IMG/VR virus record: IMGVR_UViG_3300046003_001103
Coordinates: 1 to 23,938 of that record
DNA from: a virus
Length of the DNA stretch: 23,938 nucleotides
Direction: 5' to 3' (one strand)
Shown here: in pieces, positions 9,880-20,050 of the stretch
Layout: each line of letters starts with the position of its first letter
How positions within the stretch are numbered: position 1 is the first letter of the stretch
Position numbers and translations under genes: made by a program
The notes under the pieces: generated by a model
What the model saw: the letters and a program-made list of their open reading frames with translations, nothing else
Databases searched by the model: none
What the model was told of the DNA's origin: nothing

Positions 9880-10284
9880 TTATGCTCGATTATCAGACGC
9901 AGAATGTGCCATAGATTTAACGACTTCGGTTGGGTCTTGCTCGTGTCCGCCGGTTTCTTCTTCGTCGTCTCCAAATTCTTCGTCGTCGAGTTCAGATTCG
10001 GACTTAAATTCTACTGTATCGCGGTTAAAGTTCTTGATCAAAGCTTTTACTGCTTCGTCGTTTTCGTATGCGTCAACTAGCGTTTCGTAAGTGAAGGTAT
10101 TGTCACCGGCATTTTGAACAAGCTGGATTAAGCTGTTAGTGCGCAACTTAGTTGGGACTTCTTTATCGTCACCGCGCTTCTTCAGGTACATTAGCACAGG
10201 AAGAAGGTTTGTTGAAAGAGATCCTTCTCCGGCTAGTTGTTCTTCTGGGCTTACGTCTTCTCGGATGATTTCGTTGATTTTCAA
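9880..10284 (-). CDS. Head-packaged candidate protein with capsid-targeting-like leader (acidic)
   Basis: 134 residues starting at TTG 10282-10284, one base after the stop of the preceding gene. This start gives MKINEIIRED, almost the same N-terminus as the gene just upstream; the longer reading overlaps that gene by 44 bases. The body is helical, with a strongly acidic tail (ELDDEEFGDDEEE). Residues around TLVDAYENDEAVKALIKNF then VEFK align without gaps to the upstream protein (DLIAINKKSPEIRSMIDSI then IKFK), so the two are diverged tandem paralogues. The acidic composition suits a scaffold/core or internal head protein. Function is otherwise unknown. Confidence 0.65.
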   Translation of the reverse strand: MKINEIIREDVSPEEQLAGEGSLSTNLLPVLMYLKKRGDDKEVPTKLRTNSLIQLVQNAGDNTFTYETLVDAYENDEAVKALIKNFNRDTVEFKSESELDDEEFGDDEEETGGHEQDPTEVVKSMAHSASDNRA

Positions 10285-10285
10285 T

Positions 10286-10744
10286 TTATATCCCGCGATC
10301 GCGGCTGGCAGCACGACCAGCCATGCCACCTACAGTAGCATCCTTCTCTTTAGCTTGCTTGTTTGGATCTTCATTCTTGACTGACATGTTCTTAAACTTG
10401 ATTTTCTTGTCGTCAATGCTGTCGATCATGCTGCGGATTTCCGGTGACTTCTTGTTGATAGCGATTAGATCAGCTAGATTAACTGGCTTCTTAGCAAGCT
10501 CAATTACTTTAGATATAAAAGGTAGGATTTCAACTTGTGCGTGGCCTTGACCTTTGTATTCGTCACATACCCGCTTAACAGCATTGATCATCTTCGTGTC
10601 AGCGTTAGACGAAAGTTCCATTTCTGGCTCATTGAAATTGTCTAGACCAGGATCTTCTAAATCTACAGACGGTTCCGGAAAATCGTCATCTGCCCAGTTA
10701 ATGTCGGCATCTAAACCTTCGACAATAATTTCGTTAATCTTCAT
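10286..10744 (-). CDS. Head-packaged candidate protein with MKINEIIVE leader
   Basis: 152 residues. The N-terminus MKINEIIVE-G fits a T4-type capsid-targeting sequence with an (I/L)xE cleavage site after E9. An acidic stretch follows (DADINWADDDFPEP to DLEDPGLDNFNEPEME), then a helical region related to the next gene, then a basic Lys-rich C-terminus. The start ATG at 10742-10744 lies 2 bases after the upstream stop. No enzyme motif is seen. It lies between a head-core-like gene and its own paralogue, which favours a role inside the prohead. Confidence 0.68.
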   Translation of the reverse strand: MKINEIIVEGLDADINWADDDFPEPSVDLEDPGLDNFNEPEMELSSNADTKMINAVKRVCDEYKGQGHAQVEILPFISKVIELAKKPVNLADLIAINKKSPEIRSMIDSIDDKKIKFKNMSVKNEDPNKQAKEKDATVGGMAGRAASRDRGI

Positions 10745-10746
10745 GC

Positions 10747-11475
10747 TTAACGTCTTTCTCGCCCTAATTCTTCTGGGCCGCCTGCTGCTGCATCCATTGC
10801 ATCAAACCCGTCGCCTTCTGCCGGTGGCTCTTCCATGCCCATATCGTCGCCTGCCATTGGGTCTGCCCCCATCGTCGGGTCTGCTCCCATGCCGCCTGCC
10901 ATTGGATCAGCTGGCATACCCATTGGAGCTGCTGCGCCTTCGCCTGTTAGTGCACGAGCTGCGCCATCTAGCTGCTCGCGTGTTTGTCCTAGTGTGCCAG
11001 ACAACGTTGTTAGGACCTGCCCGACTGATGCCTTAAACGCTTCTGCTTGCTCCATACCAATTTGATCACGGATGGAATCGATTAGTGCCGGTAGCTGCTC
11101 GTTCTGCATCTTACCAACTTTCTCGATCATGTCTTGTGCTGTGTCGACCATGTCTTTAGCAGCAAGAATGGCTTCTGCTTGACCGAGCTCACCTTCTTTA
11201 AGCTTACGGCGTTGCTGCTGGCCTTTATACGCATCGATCCAGCGTGATAGCCCTTCGTAAACGATAAGCATCTCTAGGTACTGCGGATTCTTCTCGGCAG
11301 TATGGATAGCACTTGATTTGCGAATAGAGTTTACTGTCTCCATAATCTTATTGCGCATAGCTTGTGCTTTTGGCAATGTGATGGAGTCATAATCTAGCTT
11401 AAACCCGAATCTCGACTCGGTAACTTTGTTTAATTTCTTCATCGAAGGCTTGTTTGTCATGTCAGTTAGTTTCAT
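10747..11475 (-). CDS. Putative prohead core / virion structural protein, helical with Gly-Met-Pro-rich tail
   Basis: 242 residues. Residues 20-175 are predicted largely helical and coiled-coil-like, with many Gln, Lys, Glu and Ala (LGQAEAILAAKDMVDTAQDM and neighbours). Residues 185-235 form a low-complexity tail of repeated PMG/DPMAGG/GADP units ending in acidic residues. The shape resembles scaffolding or prohead-core proteins, but no specific family is recognised. A possible protease site KVTE-S lies near residue 22. AGGA sits 8 bases before the ATG at 11473-11475. The two leader-bearing acidic genes follow 2 bases downstream, which supports a head-assembly context. Confidence 0.55.
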   Translation of the reverse strand: MKLTDMTNKPSMKKLNKVTESRFGFKLDYDSITLPKAQAMRNKIMETVNSIRKSSAIHTAEKNPQYLEMLIVYEGLSRWIDAYKGQQQRRKLKEGELGQAEAILAAKDMVDTAQDMIEKVGKMQNEQLPALIDSIRDQIGMEQAEAFKASVGQVLTTLSGTLGQTREQLDGAARALTGEGAAAPMGMPADPMAGGMGADPTMGADPMAGDDMGMEEPPAEGDGFDAMDAAAGGPEELGRERR

Positions 11476-11492: not shown

Positions 11493-11990
11493 CTATATTA
11501 TGTATTTAGCCTTAACAAGAATTTTTTCTAATTCTTGTTTGGCCTTCGTTAACCTATCCTTTGCGTCTGCGTATCTACTACTAAACAAATCGATCTTAAA
11601 GCTGTCGTGGCAAAAGTGAGCATTGTCTAGCTTTACTCTAAATGTTGCTTTTTCTACATCTAACTTCCCTACAAAGCTGTCTAACTCATGTAGCTCTTTT
11701 GCTTCGGAGATCCTTAATACATGAACTAACGCACAATAAACAATGGCACTTCTTTTATCTACAAACTCCAAGTCTCCAACCTTCCAACATACTTGCGAGA
11801 CTTTTGTTACCTTCTTTGTTCCTACCGTGTAGTCTCCGTTTGCTAGTTCTACTGCTACTGGGTACCTACTTGTTTGCTGTAATTCAGCTAAAGCTTTTGC
11901 TGTCCAGCTTGCTACCCGCTGATAGCCATAATCTACTATCGGCGTCGTGTTATCTAATTTTTTTGGAGTATGTGATTTTGCCTTCAACAT
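11493..11990 (-). CDS. Hypothetical protein with C-terminal coiled coil
   Basis: 165 residues, not recognised. The N-terminus is basic (MLKAKSHTPKKL). The middle contains VELANGDYTVGTKKVTKVSQVCWKVGD, a probable beta-rich module. The last 40 residues (SRYADAKDRLTKAKQELEKI) look like a coiled coil. It overlaps the upstream 70-residue gene by 41 bases in another frame, so the start could be internal, but no in-frame ATG with a better ribosome site is seen nearby. Position before the head-core-like gene suggests a late, possibly structural role. Confidence 0.6.
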   Translation of the reverse strand: MLKAKSHTPKKLDNTTPIVDYGYQRVASWTAKALAELQQTSRYPVAVELANGDYTVGTKKVTKVSQVCWKVGDLEFVDKRSAIVYCALVHVLRISEAKELHELDSFVGKLDVEKATFRVKLDNAHFCHDSFKIDLFSSRYADAKDRLTKAKQELEKILVKAKYII

Positions 11991-12162
11991 TCTTTTTCCT
12001 GGTTAGTACCTCTTTGGATACAAGTTGGTTTGCTAAGAGCTGTTCTCTTGGTTCTAGGTCTGACTTTAGTATAGTAGCATCTTCGTTAAACTTACTCAAT
12101 ACTTCGGCTTCCTCGTTGTTTAAGGGCAAATTCAATCCGGTTAAAAGTTCGACTATTTTCAT
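11950..12162 (-). CDS. Small winged-helix-like protein
   Basis: 70 residues: MKIVELLTGLNLPLNNEEAEVLSKF, then LEPREQLLANQLVSKEVLTRK and a short strand pair (GKITYSKKI). The helix-helix-strand-strand pattern, with RE-x-x-LA-x-QLV-x-K-x-V-L-x-R, recalls a winged helix-turn-helix; DNA binding is inferred only. The N-terminus MKIVELL resembles the packaged-protein leader, but no (I/L)xE site is present. The ATG at 12160-12162 is only 4 bases from a CATAAATA box and lacks a ribosome site, so translation may be leaderless. Confidence 0.6.
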   Translation of the reverse strand: MKIVELLTGLNLPLNNEEAEVLSKFNEDATILKSDLEPREQLLANQLVSKEVLTRKKNVEGKITYSKKIR

Positions 12163-12166
12163 TCAG

Positions 12167-12174
12167 TATTTATG
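12167..12174 (-). promoter_or_regulatory. Late box CATAAATA, 4 bases before a start codon
   Basis: Exact NATAAATA match on the minus strand in the 15-base gap between two genes. Transcription would begin at or near the ATG at 12162, giving an mRNA with essentially no leader. Confidence 0.5.
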
Positions 12175-12177
12175 CTG

Positions 12178-12612
12178 CTAGATTGAAAACGGTTCAAAGT
12201 ATATATTGGTATTTGGACCAGATACTATAAAGGTCGGCACCGGTATTGCTACCGTTTCGTCTAGCCCTGTAATAACTGGAACATTAACAAAGTCTGCTTC
12301 TAGTGTTCCATATGGTCTGGATGACCCCTTAAACACATCTTCCTGCTCTGTGCTAAACTTAAATGTCCAAACGCTCTGAACTCCTGCGTAGTTACTTCCG
12401 AAACTAGACCCTGTTACATCTAAGCTAACAATTTGTGGATCACTAAGCGTTAATAGTTGCGTTCTTAAGGAGAGAACTTGAACTAAGGTCTCAAAATTTC
12501 TTTGCTGATTTCTTTCTTTTGTCTGGACCGAGGCGACTATGTTTGTTTGGGTAATATCAACTAACGAGTAGCCGATGTTCATTCTTAAAAGTATTGCGTC
12601 GGAACTTAACAT
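12178..12612 (-). CDS. Hypothetical virion-type protein
   Basis: 144 residues, not recognised. The N-terminal part is helical (LVDITQTNIVASVQTKERNQ, TLVQVLSLRTQLLTL). The C-terminal half is beta-rich, with FKFSTEQEDVFKG, VPVITGLDETVAIPVP and TNIYFEPFSI. Composition and position among late genes suggest a small structural protein. The ATG at 12610-12612 has no Shine-Dalgarno and lies 7 bases from a CATAAATA late box, just past the terminator of the preceding unit, so the gene starts a new transcription unit. An internal ATG at residue 11 (MNIGYSL) is an alternative start. Confidence 0.6.
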   Translation of the reverse strand: MLSSDAILLRMNIGYSLVDITQTNIVASVQTKERNQQRNFETLVQVLSLRTQLLTLSDPQIVSLDVTGSSFGSNYAGVQSVWTFKFSTEQEDVFKGSSRPYGTLEADFVNVPVITGLDETVAIPVPTFIVSGPNTNIYFEPFSI

Positions 12613-12619
12613 TGTGTAC

Positions 12620-12627
12620 TATTTATG
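12620..12627 (-). promoter_or_regulatory. Late promoter CATAAATA after a terminator
   Basis: Exact NATAAATA match on the minus strand, 7 bases upstream of the ATG at 12612. It directly follows the hairpin terminator at 12634-12661, which is good evidence of a transcription-unit boundary. Confidence 0.6.
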
Positions 12628-12633
12628 GGCCGT

Positions 12634-12661
12634 AAAAATAGGGACTTAGAAAAGTCCCTAT
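12634..12661 (-). terminator. Rho-independent terminator
   Basis: On the minus strand a perfect 10-bp stem (ATAGGGACTT / AAGTCCCTAT) with a 4-base loop is followed by TTTT. It lies 20 bases after the stop of the 126-residue virion gene. It is the strongest terminator in the window. Confidence 0.85.
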
Positions 12662-12680
12662 CTTTAGTTTGTTACTTGGA

Positions 12681-13061
12681 TTAAGCTAGTTTGAATGCTG
12701 CTGTAGCTGCTGTAGTAGCGCCTAAGACAACACCATTAACAGTTCCAAGACCTTGGATTGCTGTTTGTAGGTCACCGTCTGTCCAACCAGTTGCGTCAAC
12801 TGCTACGCTTAGAATCAAACCACCTGTTGCTAAACAATATGCAACTGTAGATGCCTTAACTTGGATTGTACGTAGAATTGCTTCGATTGTTCCACCTGTT
12901 CCAAACTGTGCTGTGTTGTCTGCTGCAAGTGTAACCTTGTAGAATGTTAGACCACGACCGACTACTGAGATTGTTTGATTAATGGAAGCTGCGCCTGTTT
13001 CAGCGATATCAACGTTTGATACACCAGCTGCGGTTCCATGTACACGAGTAACTTCTGCCAT
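12681..13061 (-). CDS. Small abundant virion protein candidate (head decoration-like)
   Basis: 126 residues, Ala/Thr/Gly/Val-rich and almost free of charge, with strand-like segments (INQTISVVGRGLTFYKVTLAAD, AILRTIQVKASTVAYCL, GLILSVAVDATGW). Such composition is typical of small capsid decoration or tail-tube-associated proteins; the family is not recognised. Expression signals are unusually good: a late-type box, a structured 5' leader, AGGAGA 7 bases before the ATG at 13059-13061, and a strong terminator right after the gene. The single-gene unit suggests a protein made in large amounts. Confidence 0.65.
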   Translation of the reverse strand: MAEVTRVHGTAAGVSNVDIAETGAASINQTISVVGRGLTFYKVTLAADNTAQFGTGGTIEAILRTIQVKASTVAYCLATGGLILSVAVDATGWTDGDLQTAIQGLGTVNGVVLGATTAATAAFKLA

Positions 13062-13078
13062 TTTATTTCTCCTAATTT

Positions 13079-13106
13079 AAAGTACAGCTCAAATGCTGCA
13101 TACTTT
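13079..13106 (-). promoter_or_regulatory. 5'-leader stem-loop before the virion gene
   Basis: On the minus strand AAAGTA pairs with TACTTT and, after a 2-base bulge, CAGC pairs with GCTG around a 6-base loop. The hairpin ends just before the AGGAGA ribosome site and may protect the 5' end of the message. Confidence 0.5.
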
Positions 13107-13114
13107 TATTTAGT
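13107..13114 (-). promoter_or_regulatory. Probable late promoter ACTAAATA
   Basis: One mismatch from NATAAATA on the minus strand, 45 bases before the ATG at 13061. It sits between the hairpin ending the previous operon and the leader stem-loop. The gene downstream has every other sign of strong late expression. Confidence 0.45.
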
Positions 13115-13121
13115 CCAGATT

Positions 13122-13141
13122 ACGAAAATCACCGTTTTCGT
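13122..13141 (-). terminator. Hairpin at the end of the packaged-protein operon
   Basis: A 7-bp stem (ACGAAAA / TTTTCGT) with loop CGGTGA lies 2 bases after the TAA of the 635-residue gene. There is no T-run outside the stem, so termination efficiency is doubtful; it may instead stabilise the 3' end. Confidence 0.4.
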
Positions 13142-13143
13142 GG

Positions 13144-15051
13144 TTAGAATTCGTCGGATCCTAACACGGCCGGCCCATACCATTCTGTTACCCTGTGTTT
13201 ATTCTGTCTGTTAATACGTGTTATCATTTCGTTTATTGATTCTTTAACGGCTTTTGGCGTAGCTAAACACACTAAGTCGTCGTGTTGATTAAACACCTCC
13301 GATGGTGTTATATTAGGTAATACTTCGTTACTAATTAGATTATATCCACATACTGTGTATCGACCATGCCTGTATAGTTTTTCCCAAAGCCCTTTACTAC
13401 CGCCTAGACCACCCTCAGTTAAATTTGTGTCTGACAAAACTGATAATCCGTCATTCATTATAGCATAGTCATACAAGTAAGTTCCGAATCCTTGCGACTT
13501 ATACTTTTCTTCAATTTGTACTAATCTAACCTGCCACAAAGAACTATTATATTTTTCTAATTGTAAAAGACCAACTAACGTATTACGTATCGGAGATTGA
13601 GGATCAAATAACCCGTAGTATAGCTCGTCCCCTTTTGTAATCTTTTTTAACTCTAATCCGTGAACTTCGTGAATAACAGGTGTACCTAGTGGAAAATATG
13701 TAGATTTGTATGAGATATCGTTGTCCCTAATAGGGCTCGTAATTGCTTCCAATGTTAGGTCTTCGTCTTCCTTGTTTCTTTCATAGTCACGAAGCTTATC
13801 GAAGTATCCGTTGTTCCTTATTGTCTTAAAGGCCAGGTTCTCAACGCTAAACTCGCCTTCGCGCTCTAGTCCCGCCCTACGCATTCTGCGGATGTGTTCC
13901 CACAGGTCGTCAATTTCTTGTTGGTCAGTCTCAGAGGCATCACTGATAAGCAAGTCTATCTGCTGCATAATGCCTTCTGCTTTAGCTTGGACGTTGCTGT
14001 CGTCATACGTCGGTTTCTCGTATGTTGGTTTCTTAATCCATTCGTCGTGATACAACGAGTAGATACCGTTTGCTACGAGTTGATTTTCTTTCGCATTGAC
14101 GTCTTCCGCATAGAGCTCAACGTTGAACCCTTTAACTGTGATTTCGTGTCCGGAGTTCCAGAGGGACTTTTTAGCCCGTAGGAAGGGTTCGGTGAGAGGG
14201 TTTTCTTCTCCCAGCTTTCGCGCATCAACCAATACGTGTAAATCCAGATCGGACTGGCTAGTGTAATTGTATCCGCAATTGCTTCCCGTAATAATGTAAT
14301 CGACGATTCTGATTTGTTCGACATCAATGAACTCCGAAAACTTGTTTGCTATTTTAGCTAGTGCGTCTTTAACGTCTGACTTTAGTTCTTCACCATCCCA
14401 TAGTGCTGGGTTAAGGGTATCGCTGTATGCTAGTTTAGTATCAACAAACTCGCGTATTGGTTGTCGTGTAGGTTCAACGCTCTCTACCTTGTAGGATTGT
14501 TTGAACCACAAGTAAATATCAACGTTGCCTGCTCGCTTATCAAATTCGCGACGTAAGATCTGAGTAAGTTGTACTTTGTTAGAATAAGTAAGATTATCCC
14601 AGTTACCGACGTCGCGGCGCAGTTGCCTAAACAGGGCATTGCTTTGTATGCGCAAGTATTCCTCAAGCTTCCAAAAGAACGTTGCGTCGTCGCTGTTGCT
14701 TTTCTGCCTTGACCTAATGTTTTGTAGATAGCGATTGATCTGGAACAACGGAATAGACACCCTGTCGTTTACTTTGATATAGTGCTTGAACGTGTCCTGG
14801 TTGTTCAGAATTGCTAATAGGTTACCTAAGTCGGTTCCGGCGTAGTGTGTGTTGTCGTATGTGTTATAGACTAGCGTTTGATCAGCGTACCTAGACATAA
14901 GGTCTCTGTCAGATATACGATACACTTCGATCATCATAAAAATCAGGTAAATGATGCCTGCGATTTCCTCAGCAGACTTACCTTTAACGTTATCCGGGCC
15001 AAAGAACATGCGTGCTTCATATAAATATTCAATAAAAGGAAGTTTTAACAT
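13144..15051 (-). CDS. Nucleotidyltransferase-GNAT fusion with capsid-targeting-like leader
   Basis: 635 residues. The N-terminus MLKLPFIEYLYE-A fits an (I/L)xE leader. Residues 20-200 are mostly helical with no known domain. Residues 240-340 carry a Pol-beta-type nucleotidyltransferase core: TGSNCGYNYTSQSDLDLHV, with G256-S257 and metal-binding D268 and D270, and a third acidic site E312 in FNVELYAED. Residues 450-600 look like a GNAT acetyltransferase: TLVGLLQL, WQVRLVQIEEKY and SQGFGTYLYDYAI, the Q/R-x-x-G-x-G acetyl-CoA loop, followed by GLWEKLYRHG. The combination is unusual. Targets are unknown; tRNA or host-protein modification is speculation. The start overlaps the endonuclease stop as TAATG. 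It is the last gene of the operon. Confidence 0.72.
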   Translation of the reverse strand: MLKLPFIEYLYEARMFFGPDNVKGKSAEEIAGIIYLIFMMIEVYRISDRDLMSRYADQTLVYNTYDNTHYAGTDLGNLLAILNNQDTFKHYIKVNDRVSIPLFQINRYLQNIRSRQKSNSDDATFFWKLEEYLRIQSNALFRQLRRDVGNWDNLTYSNKVQLTQILRREFDKRAGNVDIYLWFKQSYKVESVEPTRQPIREFVDTKLAYSDTLNPALWDGEELKSDVKDALAKIANKFSEFIDVEQIRIVDYIITGSNCGYNYTSQSDLDLHVLVDARKLGEENPLTEPFLRAKKSLWNSGHEITVKGFNVELYAEDVNAKENQLVANGIYSLYHDEWIKKPTYEKPTYDDSNVQAKAEGIMQQIDLLISDASETDQQEIDDLWEHIRRMRRAGLEREGEFSVENLAFKTIRNNGYFDKLRDYERNKEDEDLTLEAITSPIRDNDISYKSTYFPLGTPVIHEVHGLELKKITKGDELYYGLFDPQSPIRNTLVGLLQLEKYNSSLWQVRLVQIEEKYKSQGFGTYLYDYAIMNDGLSVLSDTNLTEGGLGGSKGLWEKLYRHGRYTVCGYNLISNEVLPNITPSEVFNQHDDLVCLATPKAVKESINEMITRINRQNKHRVTEWYGPAVLGSDEF

Positions 15052-15659
15052 TAGATACCTTTATGCATTGCGATAACATGCTTATTTAATTGTGGCCAGG
15101 AAAATTCTTTCCTACAATATAAACAACTGCATTTTTCAAATCTACGACCAATATTCGGGTCAACGTATCCTTCTTGTGCGTTTCTTATCTTAATAGTTGC
15201 TTTTCGGCGAGCAATGACTTCCTCAGATAACGGTTGTCCTTTATTGATTGGTGCTCTGCCAGTTTTAATTCCTTTTCGTCCACTTGGTTTACCCCTAATA
15301 GGTGATATCCTTCCTTTTAAGCTGCCGCCACCTAATCCGTTTTCAACTACTATATTAGCCCAAATCGGGGAGTCAACAATATTTTCTCGAATTGAAAAAC
15401 TAACTGCAAATTCTTTTAAATCCACCTTATCATAGAATAAGCAATACCAGAGGGTAATCACATGCTCTGCTCCAAATTCGTTAAGGTGCTTGAGCCATTC
15501 GGTGCCCGACCCTAAATATTTTTCAACATTAGTATCGGTCCTATAGGTTTTGCCGAAATATAACTTACCAGTTATTGTATGCTGCTTTATAAATAGATAG
15601 GTTGGTCTCAAAGTTTGTTGTTGGCGAAGCGGGCTCGAATAAATACCTTTGCTGGACAT
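15051..15659 (-). CDS. GIY-YIG homing endonuclease with C-terminal zinc finger
   Basis: 202 residues from the ATG at 15657-15659, preceded by AGGGAG at good spacing. The frame is open up to 15794, which would add a capsid-leader-like N-terminus (separate entry). TYLFIKQHTITGKLYFGKTY holds the GIY (YLF, 21-23) and YIG (YFG, 34-36) equivalents, followed by KYLGSGTEWLKHL, LKEFAVSFSIREN and PIWANIVVENGLGGG, the usual layout of phage Seg-like GIY-YIG enzymes. A basic linker (KGRISPIRGKPSGRKG) leads to a C2H2 finger (C179, C182, H194, H199) for DNA recognition. It cuts DNA lacking the element and so spreads itself. It fits seamlessly into the operon: its stop overlaps the next start. Confidence 0.85.
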   Translation of the reverse strand: MSSKGIYSSPLRQQQTLRPTYLFIKQHTITGKLYFGKTYRTDTNVEKYLGSGTEWLKHLNEFGAEHVITLWYCLFYDKVDLKEFAVSFSIRENIVDSPIWANIVVENGLGGGSLKGRISPIRGKPSGRKGIKTGRAPINKGQPLSEEVIARRKATIKIRNAQEGYVDPNIGRRFEKCSCLYCRKEFSWPQLNKHVIAMHKGI

Positions 15660-15692
15660 ACTAATCTCCCTGATTAAATAATTATGTCTAGA

Positions 15693-15722
15693 GCAAGCAG
15701 ATGTTGATGCATCGTGGCTTGC
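15693..15722 (-). promoter_or_regulatory. Stem-loop in the homing endonuclease leader
   Basis: GCAAGC pairs with GCTTGC, with an inner GATG/CATC stem, on the minus strand between the GATAAATA box and the AGGGAG ribosome site. T4 homing endonuclease messages often carry such structures. Confidence 0.4.
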
Positions 15723-15730
15723 ACTAATCG

Positions 15731-15738
15731 TATTTATC
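15731..15738 (-). promoter_or_regulatory. Late promoter GATAAATA for the homing endonuclease
   Basis: NATAAATA match on the minus strand, 71 bases upstream of the endonuclease ATG and inside the leader-like open frame. It would give the endonuclease its own late transcript. Confidence 0.45.
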
Positions 15739-15793
15739 CAAGGTAGTATCCGTGCCTCTGTTAACTCTTCTTTAATGAACGGTAGCAGAGACA

Positions 15794-16933
15794 TCAATGA
15801 TTTCCGAAGTTAGCTGCGCTAAAGTGTAAGCGATTGACGAGCTTGATGTAACCGCCTTCATCGAACAATACATATCCCTCGCCTCCACGCTCGCCATTGA
15901 TATGAGCATAGACGCCGTTGTTGTTATTGTCGAGCTGGCCAATGATATCGTGTTTTAAGCTAGTAACTGCGTCAAATACGTTAAAGATAGCCTTCAGTCC
16001 TGCTGGGTTTGCTTTAATGTACTCTTGAACCTTGGCAACCATTGGTTTAGACAGCTTAGGATTTTGTTGGACCCAGGTTCCAAACTTTGATGCCAGGTTA
16101 TCCAGGTCGCGGATCTTAGTTTGCTGGTTAACAAATGTATAAAGCATATCAGGTAACCCAGACATCTTGTTAGCTTGAAGCGTTTCTGTGTTTAAGAACC
16201 CGTCAATTGCCTTGGCGTTCTTCCTGACATAATCAGTTGTCTCTTTAAACTTACGCTTGTCCATCTGTACATCGCCTTGTACCTTAATCTCCGGGCCTAA
16301 TACGCAGAGCTGGCTGTTAATGTTAAGTCCTGCTGTTGTTTTTAGCGGCTCAGGCACCTTATCTTCTGTTGTTTTACAGTAGCCGTGCACTGCGAAGCCA
16401 GCTTGCCCTTGTCCAACACGATGACCAAGCTCTGTTGTCTTATCGATCTCGTATTTTGTAGTACCTTCGCCAAACACAAACGACTTACCGTTGTCCTGTA
16501 AGTTACCAGGCCACCACATTACGTCGCCTTTGACAAATCCTTTGTAACCCGGCGGAAACGCTGATTCCATAATTGGCCACAATGCTGCTATCTTGCTTAG
16601 GAATTCTTCGTTTCCGCCCTTGCTGCGCTTCTGGGCCAAGAAGTCTTTCACAGAAGTGTACAGCCCGTTGTATCCTTTAGCTGTCCATCCTGCCATATCT
16701 GTCATAATAAACGTACCACTAACGTCGCGGCCTGCGAACAAAGCAACTTGTCCATCCCACTTAATAGTAAGGGCAGTATCTCTTGTTTTAGGCAGATGCT
16801 TGAAGCTGTTAATCACACGTAATGCTCCAGCACTACCTTCGTAGAAGATGATGTCTTCAGCGTGGGCCATTCCTACTTCGTTTAGTTTGAAGGTAGGCTT
16901 CCTGTTTTCTACAATAATTTCACTTATTTTCAT
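15794..16933 (-). CDS. Nucleic-acid-ligase-fold protein with capsid-targeting-like leader
   Basis: 379 residues. MKISEIIVE-N at the N-terminus fits a head-packaging leader cleaved after E9. Residues 50-370 show the order of motifs of the covalent nucleotidyltransferase (DNA/RNA ligase, capping enzyme) superfamily: LTIKWDGQVAL with K58 of KxDG (motif I, adenylated lysine), GFVKGDVMWW at 132-141 (motif III-like), EGYVLF at 352-357 (motif IV) and IKLVNR at 363-368 (motif V, K364). An ATP-dependent DNA or RNA ligase acting on injected DNA or on host RNA would fit; a degenerate, non-catalytic member is also possible. The start overlaps the end of the ART-like gene by 14 bases. The stop overlaps the next ATG. 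Confidence 0.7.
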   Translation of the reverse strand: MKISEIIVENRKPTFKLNEVGMAHAEDIIFYEGSAGALRVINSFKHLPKTRDTALTIKWDGQVALFAGRDVSGTFIMTDMAGWTAKGYNGLYTSVKDFLAQKRSKGGNEEFLSKIAALWPIMESAFPPGYKGFVKGDVMWWPGNLQDNGKSFVFGEGTTKYEIDKTTELGHRVGQGQAGFAVHGYCKTTEDKVPEPLKTTAGLNINSQLCVLGPEIKVQGDVQMDKRKFKETTDYVRKNAKAIDGFLNTETLQANKMSGLPDMLYTFVNQQTKIRDLDNLASKFGTWVQQNPKLSKPMVAKVQEYIKANPAGLKAIFNVFDAVTSLKHDIIGQLDNNNNGVYAHINGERGGEGYVLFDEGGYIKLVNRLHFSAANFGNH

Positions 16934-17615
16934 TATAAGAAATTTCCGTCATGTAAGCACTAACATCATCGTAATACCCAGGCCTGTCGTCGTCATCGTC
17001 TACGTTAGACTTAACTAAGTAGTATCCGTCGGGCGCATGTATCATTACTTCGTTCTTGCTTTTAATTGCTTCTTGTAACCCATCAGTTCTGTATCCGCTA
17101 TCTTCAAGAACAGCTATTACGTCTTCAGCATAGGCTTCTTTGTTAAATTCCTGAGTAGGAAAACTGTTGGGGTATAGAGGATCGGCAACTGTCATATAAT
17201 AGTAGGACATCTCAAGATGTCCTACTTTGCTATATGTTAAATCAGATACGTCTGGTGACCAGCATATCGTAAATTCTCCGATCGGAAACAATATGTGGGC
17301 AGCACCGTACTCTGTAGATTGAATCGCATCGTTGCAAGCAAATGTAGCATTTGACCTAAATCGGATTCCAAACTTCTTTAAGAAATAGTCGTCGCATATC
17401 TGATGTAACTCAAGAGGAGTATCTAACGGCGTACGGTTAACTGGCAACGGTTGAAACGAAAAATTCGGTAGTCTTTTACGAACTCCGCGATATAACTTAT
17501 TATAGGAAGGATCCCCAAGCTGAGACAGATACGGATTACAATCGGTTAAGATTTTAATCGCAGCATCTTTAGCTTTTACTCCAACTGCTTCGAGGATAAT
17601 TTCGGCTACTTTCAT
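16920..17615 (-). CDS. ADP-ribosyltransferase-like protein A, leader-bearing
   Basis: 231 residues from the ATG at 17613-17615 (MKVAEIILE-A). The frame extends 24 codons further, but that would overlap the paralogue upstream and bury the leader. It aligns with the next entry throughout: NPYLSQ, LYRG (R43), PLDTP, KKFGIRFRSNATF, YGAAHILFPIGEFTICWSPDVSDL and NEVMIHAPDGYYLV (E189). An RG motif, a Ser/Thr strand, and E-V-(L/M)-(I/F) before a Y-x-V strand are the R-S-E landmarks of ADP-ribosyltransferases, so I infer this fold with moderate confidence. T4 Alt is a head-packaged enzyme of this class. The C-terminus is acidic (a run of five Asp). A GATAAATA box lies 7 bases before the start. Confidence 0.6.
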   Translation of the reverse strand: MKVAEIILEAVGVKAKDAAIKILTDCNPYLSQLGDPSYNKLYRGVRKRLPNFSFQPLPVNRTPLDTPLELHQICDDYFLKKFGIRFRSNATFACNDAIQSTEYGAAHILFPIGEFTICWSPDVSDLTYSKVGHLEMSYYYMTVADPLYPNSFPTQEFNKEAYAEDVIAVLEDSGYRTDGLQEAIKSKNEVMIHAPDGYYLVKSNVDDDDDRPGYYDDVSAYMTEISYNENK

Positions 17616-17622
17616 GGTATCG

Positions 17623-17630
17623 TATTTATC
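17623..17630 (-). promoter_or_regulatory. Internal late box GATAAATA, 7 bases before a start codon
   Basis: NATAAATA match on the minus strand in the 16-base gap between the two ART-like genes. Transcription from it would begin next to the ATG at 17615. AAGG overlaps the box but is too far from the ATG for normal ribosome binding. Confidence 0.5.
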
Positions 17631-17631
17631 C

Positions 17632-18276
17632 TTACTGGACTGGCCAAGGTCCGCCAAGAAACAGGGCCTTGTACATCTTTCTTCCATCAGCGTACCATCC
17701 TTGGTCGCGCATTAGCGCATACATGTCGAGTATGTAATACGACTTACAGTAGATCATAATCTCTTTGTATGAAAACACCGCAGTAGTTAAGTCTTCGTTA
17801 AGCTTGTATTCAGCACGGTCCATTGAATCATACACCTCTTCAGCAATCTCTCTTGCTGAGAGCTTTTGCCCGGTTAGATGATGAAATTGATCGGTCAAAT
17901 CACGAACTTTGTGCGACCAGCAGTAATCGAATTGTCCTATCGGAAACACCATAAAAGGCGTACCAAACGACGAAGCCGATCCTTCCGACCCTGTTGTGAA
18001 TATAGTATGCTGCTGTCTGAACGGGATCTTAAACTTCTTATTCAAGTAAGACATCATGTATGTGTTAATGATAGCCGGAGTATCGCGAGGACTACGAAAT
18101 TGTTCAGTCGCCACTGTGGAAAAGATAGTACCTGCGTTTCGAGCATGAGATAATCCACGCCACATTGGTTCTTCACATTGTGATAAGAAAGGTTGGCAGC
18201 TTCGTTTAATTTGCGAAACTACTCCATCTGCATCAACGCTTCCTAATGCTTCTGTTAATACCTCACAGACTTTCAT
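17632..18276 (-). CDS. ADP-ribosyltransferase-like protein B, leader-bearing
   Basis: 214 residues. The ATG at 18274-18276 overlaps the stop of the upstream gene (ATGA) and gives MKVCEVLTE-A, an (I/L)xE leader; a start 11 codons upstream would overlap that gene by 37 bases. Shared with protein A: QPFLSQ, MWRG (R40), SPRDTP, KKFKIPFRQQHTIF, FGTPFMVFPIGQFDYCWSHKVRDL and KEIMIYCKSYYIL (E172). The same R-S-E reading applies. It differs from A in the C-terminal region (GRKMYKALFLGGPW) and lacks the Asp run. Divergence between the two suggests different targets. The fold call rests on motif order only. Confidence 0.6.
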   Translation of the reverse strand: MKVCEVLTEALGSVDADGVVSQIKRSCQPFLSQCEEPMWRGLSHARNAGTIFSTVATEQFRSPRDTPAIINTYMMSYLNKKFKIPFRQQHTIFTTGSEGSASSFGTPFMVFPIGQFDYCWSHKVRDLTDQFHHLTGQKLSAREIAEEVYDSMDRAEYKLNEDLTTAVFSYKEIMIYCKSYYILDMYALMRDQGWYADGRKMYKALFLGGPWPVQ

Positions 18277-19028
18277 CTGACTAAAATGTTCTGTATCTGC
18301 CTGAACCAACTCGGCGACCCTGCCGGAGCAGACTCAGGTAAGCGGAGTAGGTTCTTTTTAGCAGCTTCTCTTGCTTGTGCTAGCTTCTCTTCTTTTCGTG
18401 GATCGTTTGCTAATGCTTTCAGTATCGTCTTCACTGACGCAAGGTCAGCTCCAGTAGCATTAGGGTTTAACAAGATCTTCGCTACTGCGTCCTTGTCATT
18501 GGCAACTACTTCATTCGTCGTACGATCTACTAACTTTCCTTCAAACGGACTAAACTTTAGGCCTAAAGCTTTTGCTATAGATGAATACAGAATAAACAGC
18601 TCTCCACCCTTAAACTCTGGGTCGTTGTATTGTCCTGATAGTCCGTGCTGGTGAAACGGTGCTACTCGGCTTGCGTCTGGAATGACCATTACATCAACTT
18701 GAACAAAGGATCCATCAGGGACTGGCATACGAACGTGAACGTTGCGACCAGAAAGCGCACATTGAAACCCTTTAGCTTCGATAAACTTACGCAATGCTAC
18801 CTTAGCTTGCTTTTCGTCTTTAGCGTTAAAGAACTGCTGTATTTCAGCAGCATCTACGAACACATCCATGTCACCAGATTCTACCTTATAGCCGGCTGAG
18901 CCAATGTGAGGTATGATCTTAATACCGTCCGGCATCAGACCTTGTATGTCATTGATGATCTTTGGAACGTATTCCTTCTTAATCGCAGTTACATCATCAA
19001 ATACGTTACCACCTTCTGTTAAAATCAT
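18273..19028 (-). CDS. Nucleotidyltransferase-fold protein
   Basis: 251 residues. IIPHIGSAGYKVESGDMDVFVDA (39-60) is a Pol-beta-type nucleotidyltransferase signature: G43-S44, then metal-binding D53 and D55. The third Asp is D112 in VQVDVMVI. The C-terminal half is helical and basic (EEKLAQAREAAKKNLLRL). This is the same core as in the 635-residue fusion protein, so the phage carries two such enzymes in one operon. Possible substrates are tRNA 3' ends, antibiotics-like small molecules or proteins (AMPylation); none can be chosen from sequence. The N-terminus MILTE-G ends in an LTE site but is shorter than the other leaders. It is coupled by ATGA overlaps at both ends. Confidence 0.72.
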   Translation of the reverse strand: MILTEGGNVFDDVTAIKKEYVPKIINDIQGLMPDGIKIIPHIGSAGYKVESGDMDVFVDAAEIQQFFNAKDEKQAKVALRKFIEAKGFQCALSGRNVHVRMPVPDGSFVQVDVMVIPDASRVAPFHQHGLSGQYNDPEFKGGELFILYSSIAKALGLKFSPFEGKLVDRTTNEVVANDKDAVAKILLNPNATGADLASVKTILKALANDPRKEEKLAQAREAAKKNLLRLPESAPAGSPSWFRQIQNILVR

Positions 19029-20050
19029 TTCTTAGGCTTCCTTACACTCCACGGCACTCCACCGGCCGATTCGGCAGTAGCGGGTTCTCTAGTTTTCTGT
19101 CTAGCAGGATTATAAGCCGACGGTGCAGGAGCTGGCGCAAAAGTAGGCATAGGGGCAGGATTGCGTGTGTTTGTTTTTACTGTTGGCGCATTAGCTTTCC
19201 ATCCAGTATTATAGCTCGGAGCAGGTGCAGCAGCAGGCACAGGCGGAGGAACTGAAGCGGCAGGAGCAGCAACTACTTCGGGCTCAGCGTAATCAGGATT
19301 GTTGTACTTGTTCCATGTGTTTAACTGTTGCTGGTATCTCTTCTTGTATTCTTTTACTTCGCGTGGATTTGCTCCGGCCGGGATTTCTAGCTTAGGCTTT
19401 GTTGATGTGGATGCAGTATTTTGAGCCAACATCTGATTAGCTATTGTTTCATAGGACGGATCCCCCGGTTTTAACGGTTTCTGCCCTTTTCCTACTACAA
19501 TCGGGTCACCGTGCTTAAATGTAGCAGGAATCGCAGCAGGAATCGCAGCAGGAGTCGCAGGTGTGTATTCGATGTCTGGCAACTCTCTTTTTCCAGTGGT
19601 TGCCGCTGGTTCAGCTGCAGGAGCAGGAGCAGGTTCAGCTGCAGGAGCAACAGGTTCAGCTGCAGGAGCAGTGGCCTTTTTAGCTCTTGCTTGTACCGGA
19701 GTGCCTAATCGCTCTAAGTTTGCTGCATTGAGAATATACTGAAGAACATTATTTGGATCGTTTGCTCCAACTAACTTACCTTTTGTGTATTTGCCACCCA
19801 GGTACTTCTCTAGGTACCTGTCCAGGTGACCTTTAATTTGATTATCCGTAGAGTTAGCTGGAATAGAAGGAGCAATTTCAGTTTGCCACCTTTTTAGAAT
19901 ATCGTTTGCCCAGTCATTAATGTTTCCTTTTGCCATACCAGTCCTAAAGTTGGCTGCTCCTTTACCGGACGGCATACCTGCAATGCCGGCGCCAACTGCT
20001 TTTACAGTATCCCAGAATCCCTCGTTTATCACTATCTCGTTAACCTTCAT
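19025..20050 (-). CDS. Pro/Ala-rich internal head protein candidate with capsid-targeting-like leader
   Basis: 341 residues. MKVNEIVINE-G fits the packaging leader. Residues 11-125 include a Gly-rich helix (FWDTVKAVGAGIAGMPSGKG) and a folded segment (DWANDILKRWQTEIAPSI, LDRYLEKYLGGKY). Residues 125-341 are low complexity, with repeated PAAEP/APA and AIPA units and many Lys and Arg, overall basic. That composition suits a DNA-binding, unfolded internal head protein that can pass through the tail, but no family is recognised. ATGA overlaps couple it to its neighbours on both sides. Confidence 0.62.
   Translation of the reverse strand: MKVNEIVINEGFWDTVKAVGAGIAGMPSGKGAANFRTGMAKGNINDWANDILKRWQTEIAPSIPANSTDNQIKGHLDRYLEKYLGGKYTKGKLVGANDPNNVLQYILNAANLERLGTPVQARAKKATAPAAEPVAPAAEPAPAPAAEPAATTGKRELPDIEYTPATPAAIPAAIPATFKHGDPIVVGKGQKPLKPGDPSYETIANQMLAQNTASTSTKPKLEIPAGANPREVKEYKKRYQQQLNTWNKYNNPDYAEPEVVAAPAASVPPPVPAAAPAPSYNTGWKANAPTVKTNTRNPAPMPTFAPAPAPSAYNPARQKTREPATAESAGGVPWSVRKPKK
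19528..19670 (-). repeat. Tandem-type repeats coding for PAAEP / AIPA units
   Basis: Three identical 18-base copies start at 19608, 19632 and 19653 (GGTTCAGCTGCAGGAGCA on the plus strand). A second array of 12-base GGAATCGCAGCA-type units starts at 19528. All lengths are multiples of three, so copy number can change without a frameshift. Confidence 0.85.

Follow-up and report, generated by a model that had tools for sequence, protein, structure and literature searches.

The DNA analyzed here is IMG/VR virus record IMGVR_UViG_3300046003_001103, whose 23,938 bases make up the whole of the window; its subject is a series of genes with unrelated products that begin with much the same short leader, ending in [I/L]xE. 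The window is contained with 100% identity in a 155-kb contig, G001, at positions 120619-144556. Nine such N-termini had been listed in the initial annotation, and all nine were found at their given starts on the minus strand, by which the genes are named below. Eight of them belong to the leader proteins of the window, including a polymerase-X-like protein, a ligase-like DUF6267 protein, two paralogues resembling ADP-ribosyltransferases (ART-like) and a second nucleotidyltransferase.

Gene 20050 (19025..20050, minus strand, as are all the genes in this paragraph) encodes a Pro/Ala-rich protein of 341 amino acids (aa) with the leader MKVNEIVINE/GFWD (codons 20021-20050; the slash marks the predicted cut). 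The polymerase-X-like nucleotidyltransferase of 251 aa is encoded by gene 19028 (18273..19028; leader MILTE/GGN, codons 19014-19028), and the two ART-like proteins by genes 18276 (17632..18276; 214 aa; phrog_11975, 5.3e-26; leader MKVCEVLTE/A, codons 18250-18276) and 17615 (16920..17615; 231 aa; phrog_11975, 5.8e-33; leader MKVAEIILE/A, codons 17589-17615). The DUF6267 protein of 379 aa (16933, at 15794..16933; PF19782, 1.8e-27) starts with MKISEIIVE/N (codons 16907-16933), and the second nucleotidyltransferase, a protein of 635 aa (15051, at 13144..15051; phrog_36119, 9.3e-57), with MLKLPFIEYLYE/AR (codons 15016-15051). Two smaller genes complete the set: 10744 (10286..10744; 152 aa; leader MKINEIIVE/G, codons 10718-10744; orthologues MKIKEVISE/G and MRVKDVIFE/A) and 10284 (9880..10284; 134 aa; leader (M)KINEIIRE/D, codons 10258-10284), which starts with TTG, not ATG, its orthologues beginning at the same residue (MKISEIICE/D, MRVNEIIRE/D).

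Leader lengths in the window set range from 5 to 13 residues. When 20 leaders of G001 were aligned on the glutamate, P1 was E in 20/20, P3 was I or L in 18/20 and P5 was E in 18/20, frequencies that are partly built in because the leaders were picked by eye among genes preselected for the pattern; P2 was variable, and P1', which lies outside the pattern, was mostly G (8) or A (6). For comparison, the T4 record gives MKTYQEFIAE/A (IPII/IPIII), MELITELFDE/D (Alt) and MAKINELLRE/S (gp24) as leaders, the T4 leader being one residue longer than the G001 type. The window proteins thus show the short N-terminal leader with a gp21-type [I/L]xE end by which T4-type capsid-targeting cargo is recognized. 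We read these shared N-termini as T4-type capsid-targeting propeptides, the cargo being packed in the head, cleaved and most likely delivered with the DNA, and put the probability of this reading at roughly four in five.

A single leader type was found on unrelated bodies, among which it is interchangeable, and orthologues exchange or resize the leader while retaining [I/L]xE directly before the conserved body. The DUF6267 body, preceded by MKISEIIVE/N in the window, carries MKISEIITE/S, MRASEFITE/S or MRAKEFIIE/N in relatives; ART-like paralogues start with MKVAEIILE, MKVCEVLTE, MKSSEFITE, MRANEFLAE or MKSAEFIKE; and orthologues of 15051 start with FIQELVE/AR, FIEHLTE/AR or FLEELAE/AR, ending in LxE/AR or a near variant. 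Orthologues of 20050 carry MKVNDIIVDE/GFWD and MKINEIVSNQVNE/GFWD, so that the length of this leader varies (10-13 residues) and the point before the constant GFWD is kept. Moreover, 31 homologues of a fused enzyme related to 19028 and 16933 start with 4-9 residues that in every case end in [L/I]xE (LLE, LKE, LNE, LSE, LYE, LIE, LQE or ILE) and are followed by an invariant GGN. Likeness of this kind could also stem from duplicated gene starts carrying translation signals, with no targeting role, and near-copy leaders do recur (MRAKEF, MRANEF, MKINEI), one leader having been duplicated by a homing endonuclease insertion (see below). We regard this as very improbable, since conservation is at the protein level, with [I/L] at P3 and E at P1 kept and P2 and length variable, since GGN or GFWD directly follows the glutamate across divergent orthologues, and since the leader is predictive of virion membership in cyanophage S-CREM2 (see below).

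To estimate how often such N-termini would be encountered by chance, a strict pattern (^M.{2,5}[EQD][FILVM][ILVFMYT].E) was applied at annotated start codons, with internal methionines pooled over five related genomes as background (29/6372, 0.46%). The pattern matched 5 of the 29 genes of the window (P = 2.1e-7) and, in the genome-wide search that the initial annotation had proposed, 17 of the 231 genes of G001 against 1.1 expected (P 1.4e-15); in G002, a nearer relative of 166 kb, it matched 11/229 genes against about one expected (P 1.2e-8). Shuffled N-termini gave mean matches of 1.3-1.8 per genome. In its DNA form the pattern had 11 sites in G001, 12 in G002 and none in T4 or SPO1, and the reversed DNA pattern had no site in G001 or G002. 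One of the 17 G001 matches, G001_36464, was rejected as a false positive because its relatives have no leader. A further, larger leader cluster lies at G001:85333-93972, where ten leader-cluster proteins had no match in Pfam. The leader set extends far past the window, with about 20 leader genes on the 155 kb of G001.

The DNA polymerase of G001 is ~65% identical to those of G007 (342 kb), G008 (300 kb) and G009 (320 kb), referred to here as the siblings, and 42-49% identical to those of Phosso, Atu_ph07, BF and 121Q; by these identities G001 is an incomplete piece of a jumbo T4-superfamily phage, an aquatic one. All three ~300-kb siblings encode a gp21-type protease (PF03420, E 6e-25 to 9e-24) and gp23 (PF07068, E 8e-98 to 1e-100), both within a T4-type head operon, gp20-gp21-gp22-gp23. 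These matches indicate that the PF03420 search works on such phages; none of the control set passed the cut-off. A gp21-type protease, anticipated in the initial annotation, is accordingly present in the three siblings and was not found on the incomplete G001 and G002. Profile searches of the window record with PF03420 and PF07068 found no gp21, and T4 head proteins compared with G001 and G002 by tblastn and phmmer gave no convincing match. A search based on gp23 for the head genes of the window phage returned 80 loci and, among those listed, no contig from the sample of G001. The phage sheath family PF04984 had no match in G001-G006. Of note, a small frame at G001:68363-68452 (L027, L044), in a protein of ~100 aa, matches the beginning of the gp23 family over 30 residues and is not a full capsid gene.

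Cultured relatives allowed the leader to be compared with virion composition. The virion proteome of cyanophage S-CREM2, determined by mass spectrometry, comprises 52 of 219 proteins according to Table 3 of its description (PMC10665884). A pattern with T4 spacing (^M.{5}F[ILVFMT].E) matches exactly five annotated S-CREM2 starts (ORF6, 13, 14, 136 and 154), and all five are in the virion list, compared with 47 of the 214 others (Fisher p 6.5e-4), a test which is partly post hoc because only T4 spacing gave enrichment; neither the strict pattern (R1) nor a looser one (R2) was enriched among S-CREM2 virion proteins. The leader-bearing virion proteins include a S-adenosylmethionine (SAM) hydrolase, a kinase and a cytidylyltransferase. 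Two further proteins detected in the virion have leader-gene relatives, namely ORF156, a homologue of the nucleotidyltransferase domain of 15051 (phmmer 8.5e-49), and ORF160, a homologue of leader gene G007_80772 (3.2e-19). In Atu_ph07, the homologous operon gp53-gp66 carries leaders of the form M[KR]WxQLxE and lies within the block of coding sequences (CDS) 31-76, of which 29 proteins were detected in virions (PMC6102473), a count that refers to the block and not to gp53-gp66 in particular. This support from an isolated relative, S-CREM2, for leader-bearing proteins in the virion is new and is the strongest of an experimental kind, and together with the cleavage signature, the leader swapping and the gp21 and gp23 genes of the siblings it upholds the T4-type leaders of the initial annotation. 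As a separate observation, ORF12 of S-CREM2 (L281:7704-10313), a Cas9-like nuclease detected in the virion, starts with MTSRWSNWSTGSDKKPLRFASFMAE/A, possibly a leader behind an N-terminal extension.

The scope of the Atu_ph07 count is one of several points that weigh against capsid targeting. The S-CREM2 pattern was fixed to T4 spacing after inspection of the S-CREM2 N-termini, a clear leader is missing from ORF156 itself, and the S-CREM2 authors allow for co-purification (PMC10665884). Cleavage sites are predicted from sequence, a mature N-terminus having been seen for none of the leader proteins, and profile searches with PF03420 and PF07068 gave no gp21 and no full gp23 on G001 or G002, both of which are fragments. 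The leader of 19028, at 5 residues, is below the length of the quoted T4 leaders, and the DUF6267 protein of cyanophage S-WAM1 has none. Finally, the leader sets of the siblings are small: 4 genes in G007 (P 0.11, not significant) and 6 each in G008 and G009 (P 0.005 for both).

For the window phage we infer cleavage, packaging, injection and all enzyme activities, the case for packaging running by analogy through the relatives. Under capsid targeting, the leader would draw each protein into the prohead core at head assembly, and a gp21-type (peptidase S77) prohead protease, presumably encoded in the part of the genome absent from G001, would cut after the glutamate of [I/L]xE. After this processing the proteins would be retained in the head together with the DNA and most probably pass with it into the next host. 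There they would likely serve as an infection-ready kit that repairs gaps or nicks in the newly arrived DNA (or cleaved RNA) and modifies host targets ahead of phage gene expression. The repair part of this proposal follows from the polymerase-X-like and ligase-like assignments, the latter made at motif level.

The leaders could alternatively be protease-cut on proteins that belong to the prohead core or head structure and are not delivered to the host, as T4 gp22, gp67, gp68, gp23 and gp24 are processed by the same protease (PMC5694885). The proteins of 20050, 10744 and 10284 have no enzyme signature, and a gene of a head-and-packaging-type family, itself without a leader (10747..11475, minus strand; phrog_14154 'virion structural protein', 5.1e-10), adjoins the latter two; the N-terminal 79 residues of its product are conserved in G007-G009. 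Nevertheless, several leader bodies are recognizable as enzymes, the copy number of the ART-like family varies as that of effectors would, and the leader-bearing virion proteins of S-CREM2 include the three enzymes named above; a purely structural role thus seems to us distinctly unlikely. For the 20050 protein no match was obtained in Pfam, PHROG or NCBIfam, and the DNA-binding-like role first suggested for it found no evidence.

By homology, the products of 19028 and 16933 correspond to the halves of a single enzyme, a fused protein of ~640 aa, in the siblings G007, G008 and G009. The N-terminal half of this protein is homologous to 19028, and DUF6267 is fused behind the polymerase-X-like domain, whereas in the window the halves are separate, each with its own leader; relatives of the fused protein are encoded in 408 IMG/VR stretches. 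An AlphaFold model of the fused protein (predicted local distance difference test, pLDDT, 76; predicted template modeling score, pTM, 0.51) has one domain that matches family X DNA polymerases (Foldseek probability 1.00, best E 1.4e-3); the matches of the fused homologue are to pol mu, beta and lambda with low TM-scores, so this relationship is remote. In 19028 the motifs GS.G....SGD.D...D and QTDFM are conserved, and a beta-type palm with its Asp triad was recognized. The DUF6267 half appears ligase-like at the level of motifs, with the ligase-superfamily motifs KWDG, EGxV and K conserved; it matches an Atu_ph07 protein annotated 'RNA ligase' (probability 0.93, BFVD), the probability against a solved RNA ligase in the PDB is only 0.25, and its Pfam match is to DUF6267 only. 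PDB sequence searches for 16933, 15051 and alignments A3 and A4 gave nothing useful.

This pair might instead work late on RNA or DNA in the producing cell and merely be trapped in heads, as the leaderless DUF6267 protein of S-WAM1, located beside replication genes, would suggest. We consider this unlikely, given that both halves carry their own leader here and that the fused sibling protein keeps one [L/I]xE/GGN start.

The 18276 protein is paralogous to 17615 and to G001_93280 and displays the pattern R-G ... F-x-T-G ... E-I-M; across the family R43-G44, R87 and E189 are nearly invariant, and homologues of 17615 are found among gp54-gp63 of Atu_ph07. An AlphaFold2 (AF2) model of 17615 reached a pLDDT of 82, the leader residues 1-7 scoring below 50, and a PDB fold search with it returned no significant match (Arr at rank 7, probability 0.11). 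The initial proposal of two ART-like proteins is accordingly backed by motifs for 17615 and 18276 and not by the fold search, and any ADP-ribosyltransferase identity is putative. The family may be of the R-S-E type of ADP-ribosyltransferases, a reading that serves as a lead only. ART-like paralogues also occur in tandem runs in L275 and L276, starting with MKINEI, MKIYEI or MKLYEL.

In T4, the internal proteins follow this route of packaging and delivery, and they inhibit type IV restriction enzymes (PMC12373910, PMC3012670); T4 has three of them plus Alt, and at least ten have been reported across related phages (PMC3012670, PMC12373910). The window phage resembles T4 IPI-IPIII and Alt in having a short leader with a hydrophobic-x-E gp21-type site on unrelated proteins, with gp21 and gp23 encoded by its siblings; it differs in its about 20 leader genes on a 155-kb fragment, in a spacing one residue shorter and in bodies that include nucleotidyltransferase- and ligase-type enzymes. 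S-CREM2 is alike in its virion cytidylyltransferase, kinase and nucleotidyltransferase-family proteins, several with a T4-spaced leader (PMC10665884), and unlike in having fewer leader genes; its description, in the sections consulted, treats carriage in the virion and not a shared leader (PMC10665884). The gp53-gp66 operon of Atu_ph07 (PMC6102473, NC_042013) shares the adjoining primase/helicase and the ligase-like, nucleotidyltransferase and ART-like paralogues, whereas its leader is M[KR]WxQLxE instead of MKxxEIIxE and many more ART-like copies stand in a row. Giant phages of the phiKZ type likewise package many inner-body or ejection proteins in the head, several of them processed by a prohead protease (PMC5694885, PMC13282480), but with propeptides mostly longer than 100 residues. 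An open-access literature search, with most subscription journals outside it, found nothing beyond T4 reviews that links the leader with cyanophages or this jumbo group.

The mechanism is thus a known one, that of the T4 capsid-targeting sequence, whereas the size of the cargo and its richness in enzymes are unusual. The enzyme-rich cargo first proposed stands for 19028 (polymerase-X-like), 15051 (nucleotidyltransferase) and, by motif, 16933 (ligase-like), and fails for 15794, which is not an independent effector. We lean, with little more than even confidence, toward T4-type leaders being a general addressing system in jumbo T4-superfamily phages and cyanophages, placing dozens of unrelated enzymes in each virion, including a polymerase-X/ligase pair and tandem ART-like effectors. 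If so, a short N-terminal rule would predict the head-carried proteins of T4-related phages, making the delivered proteome of uncultured ones readable from sequence; it would account for the SAM hydrolase, kinase and cytidylyltransferase in cyanophage virions, and would indicate many candidate early host-takeover or counter-defence proteins, as well as a pair of proteins possibly delivered for DNA or RNA repair, something that has not been described for T4.

The ninth N-terminus belongs to a GIY-YIG-type homing endonuclease open reading frame (ORF; 15051..15794, minus strand) that begins with MSLLPFIKEELTE/AR (codons 15756-15794), a copy of the 15051 leader; the most natural reading is therefore an insertion event that duplicated and displaced this leader. 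Its body matches homing endonuclease phrog_314 weakly (1e-3), paralogues occur elsewhere in G001 and in G002, and the insert is absent from eight related contigs, where the 15051 gene comes immediately after DUF6267. Since its leader is a displaced copy on a homing endonuclease ORF, 15794 is no independent effector, and its initial listing as a separate leader protein was abandoned. The junction between DUF6267 and the 15051 gene (window 15051-15794) corresponds to L003-L009 and L018-L023. The C-terminal part of 15051 itself is a candidate acetyltransferase-like region.

With regard to expression, the window contains 11 copies of ATAAATA where 5.35 would be expected, a count of 11 being reached by 0 of 100 shuffles, and certain of these sites lie directly upstream of genes; late promoters of the form TATAAATA number 3 against 1.5 expected, which is not significant. 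The single late operon proposed in the initial annotation therefore keeps the modest ATAAATA excess and lacks enrichment of TATAAATA, and the leader genes may plausibly be a late operon.

At the edge of the window, the gene at 108-1289 shares its C-terminal part with the adjoining leader gene G001:119956-120729 (1.3e-22), which starts with MRANEFIIE/G; the window gene ends in DLHSGNIMIR...ITDP, which has a kinase-like look. Beyond the window, Alt-like leaders (MFLTELF, MFVTELF and MFVYDLFE) were observed at G001:87832-89868, 11932-13149 and 28199-29779, the product of the last being nicotinamide mononucleotide (NMN)-adenylyltransferase-like (TIGR00125, 5e-6).

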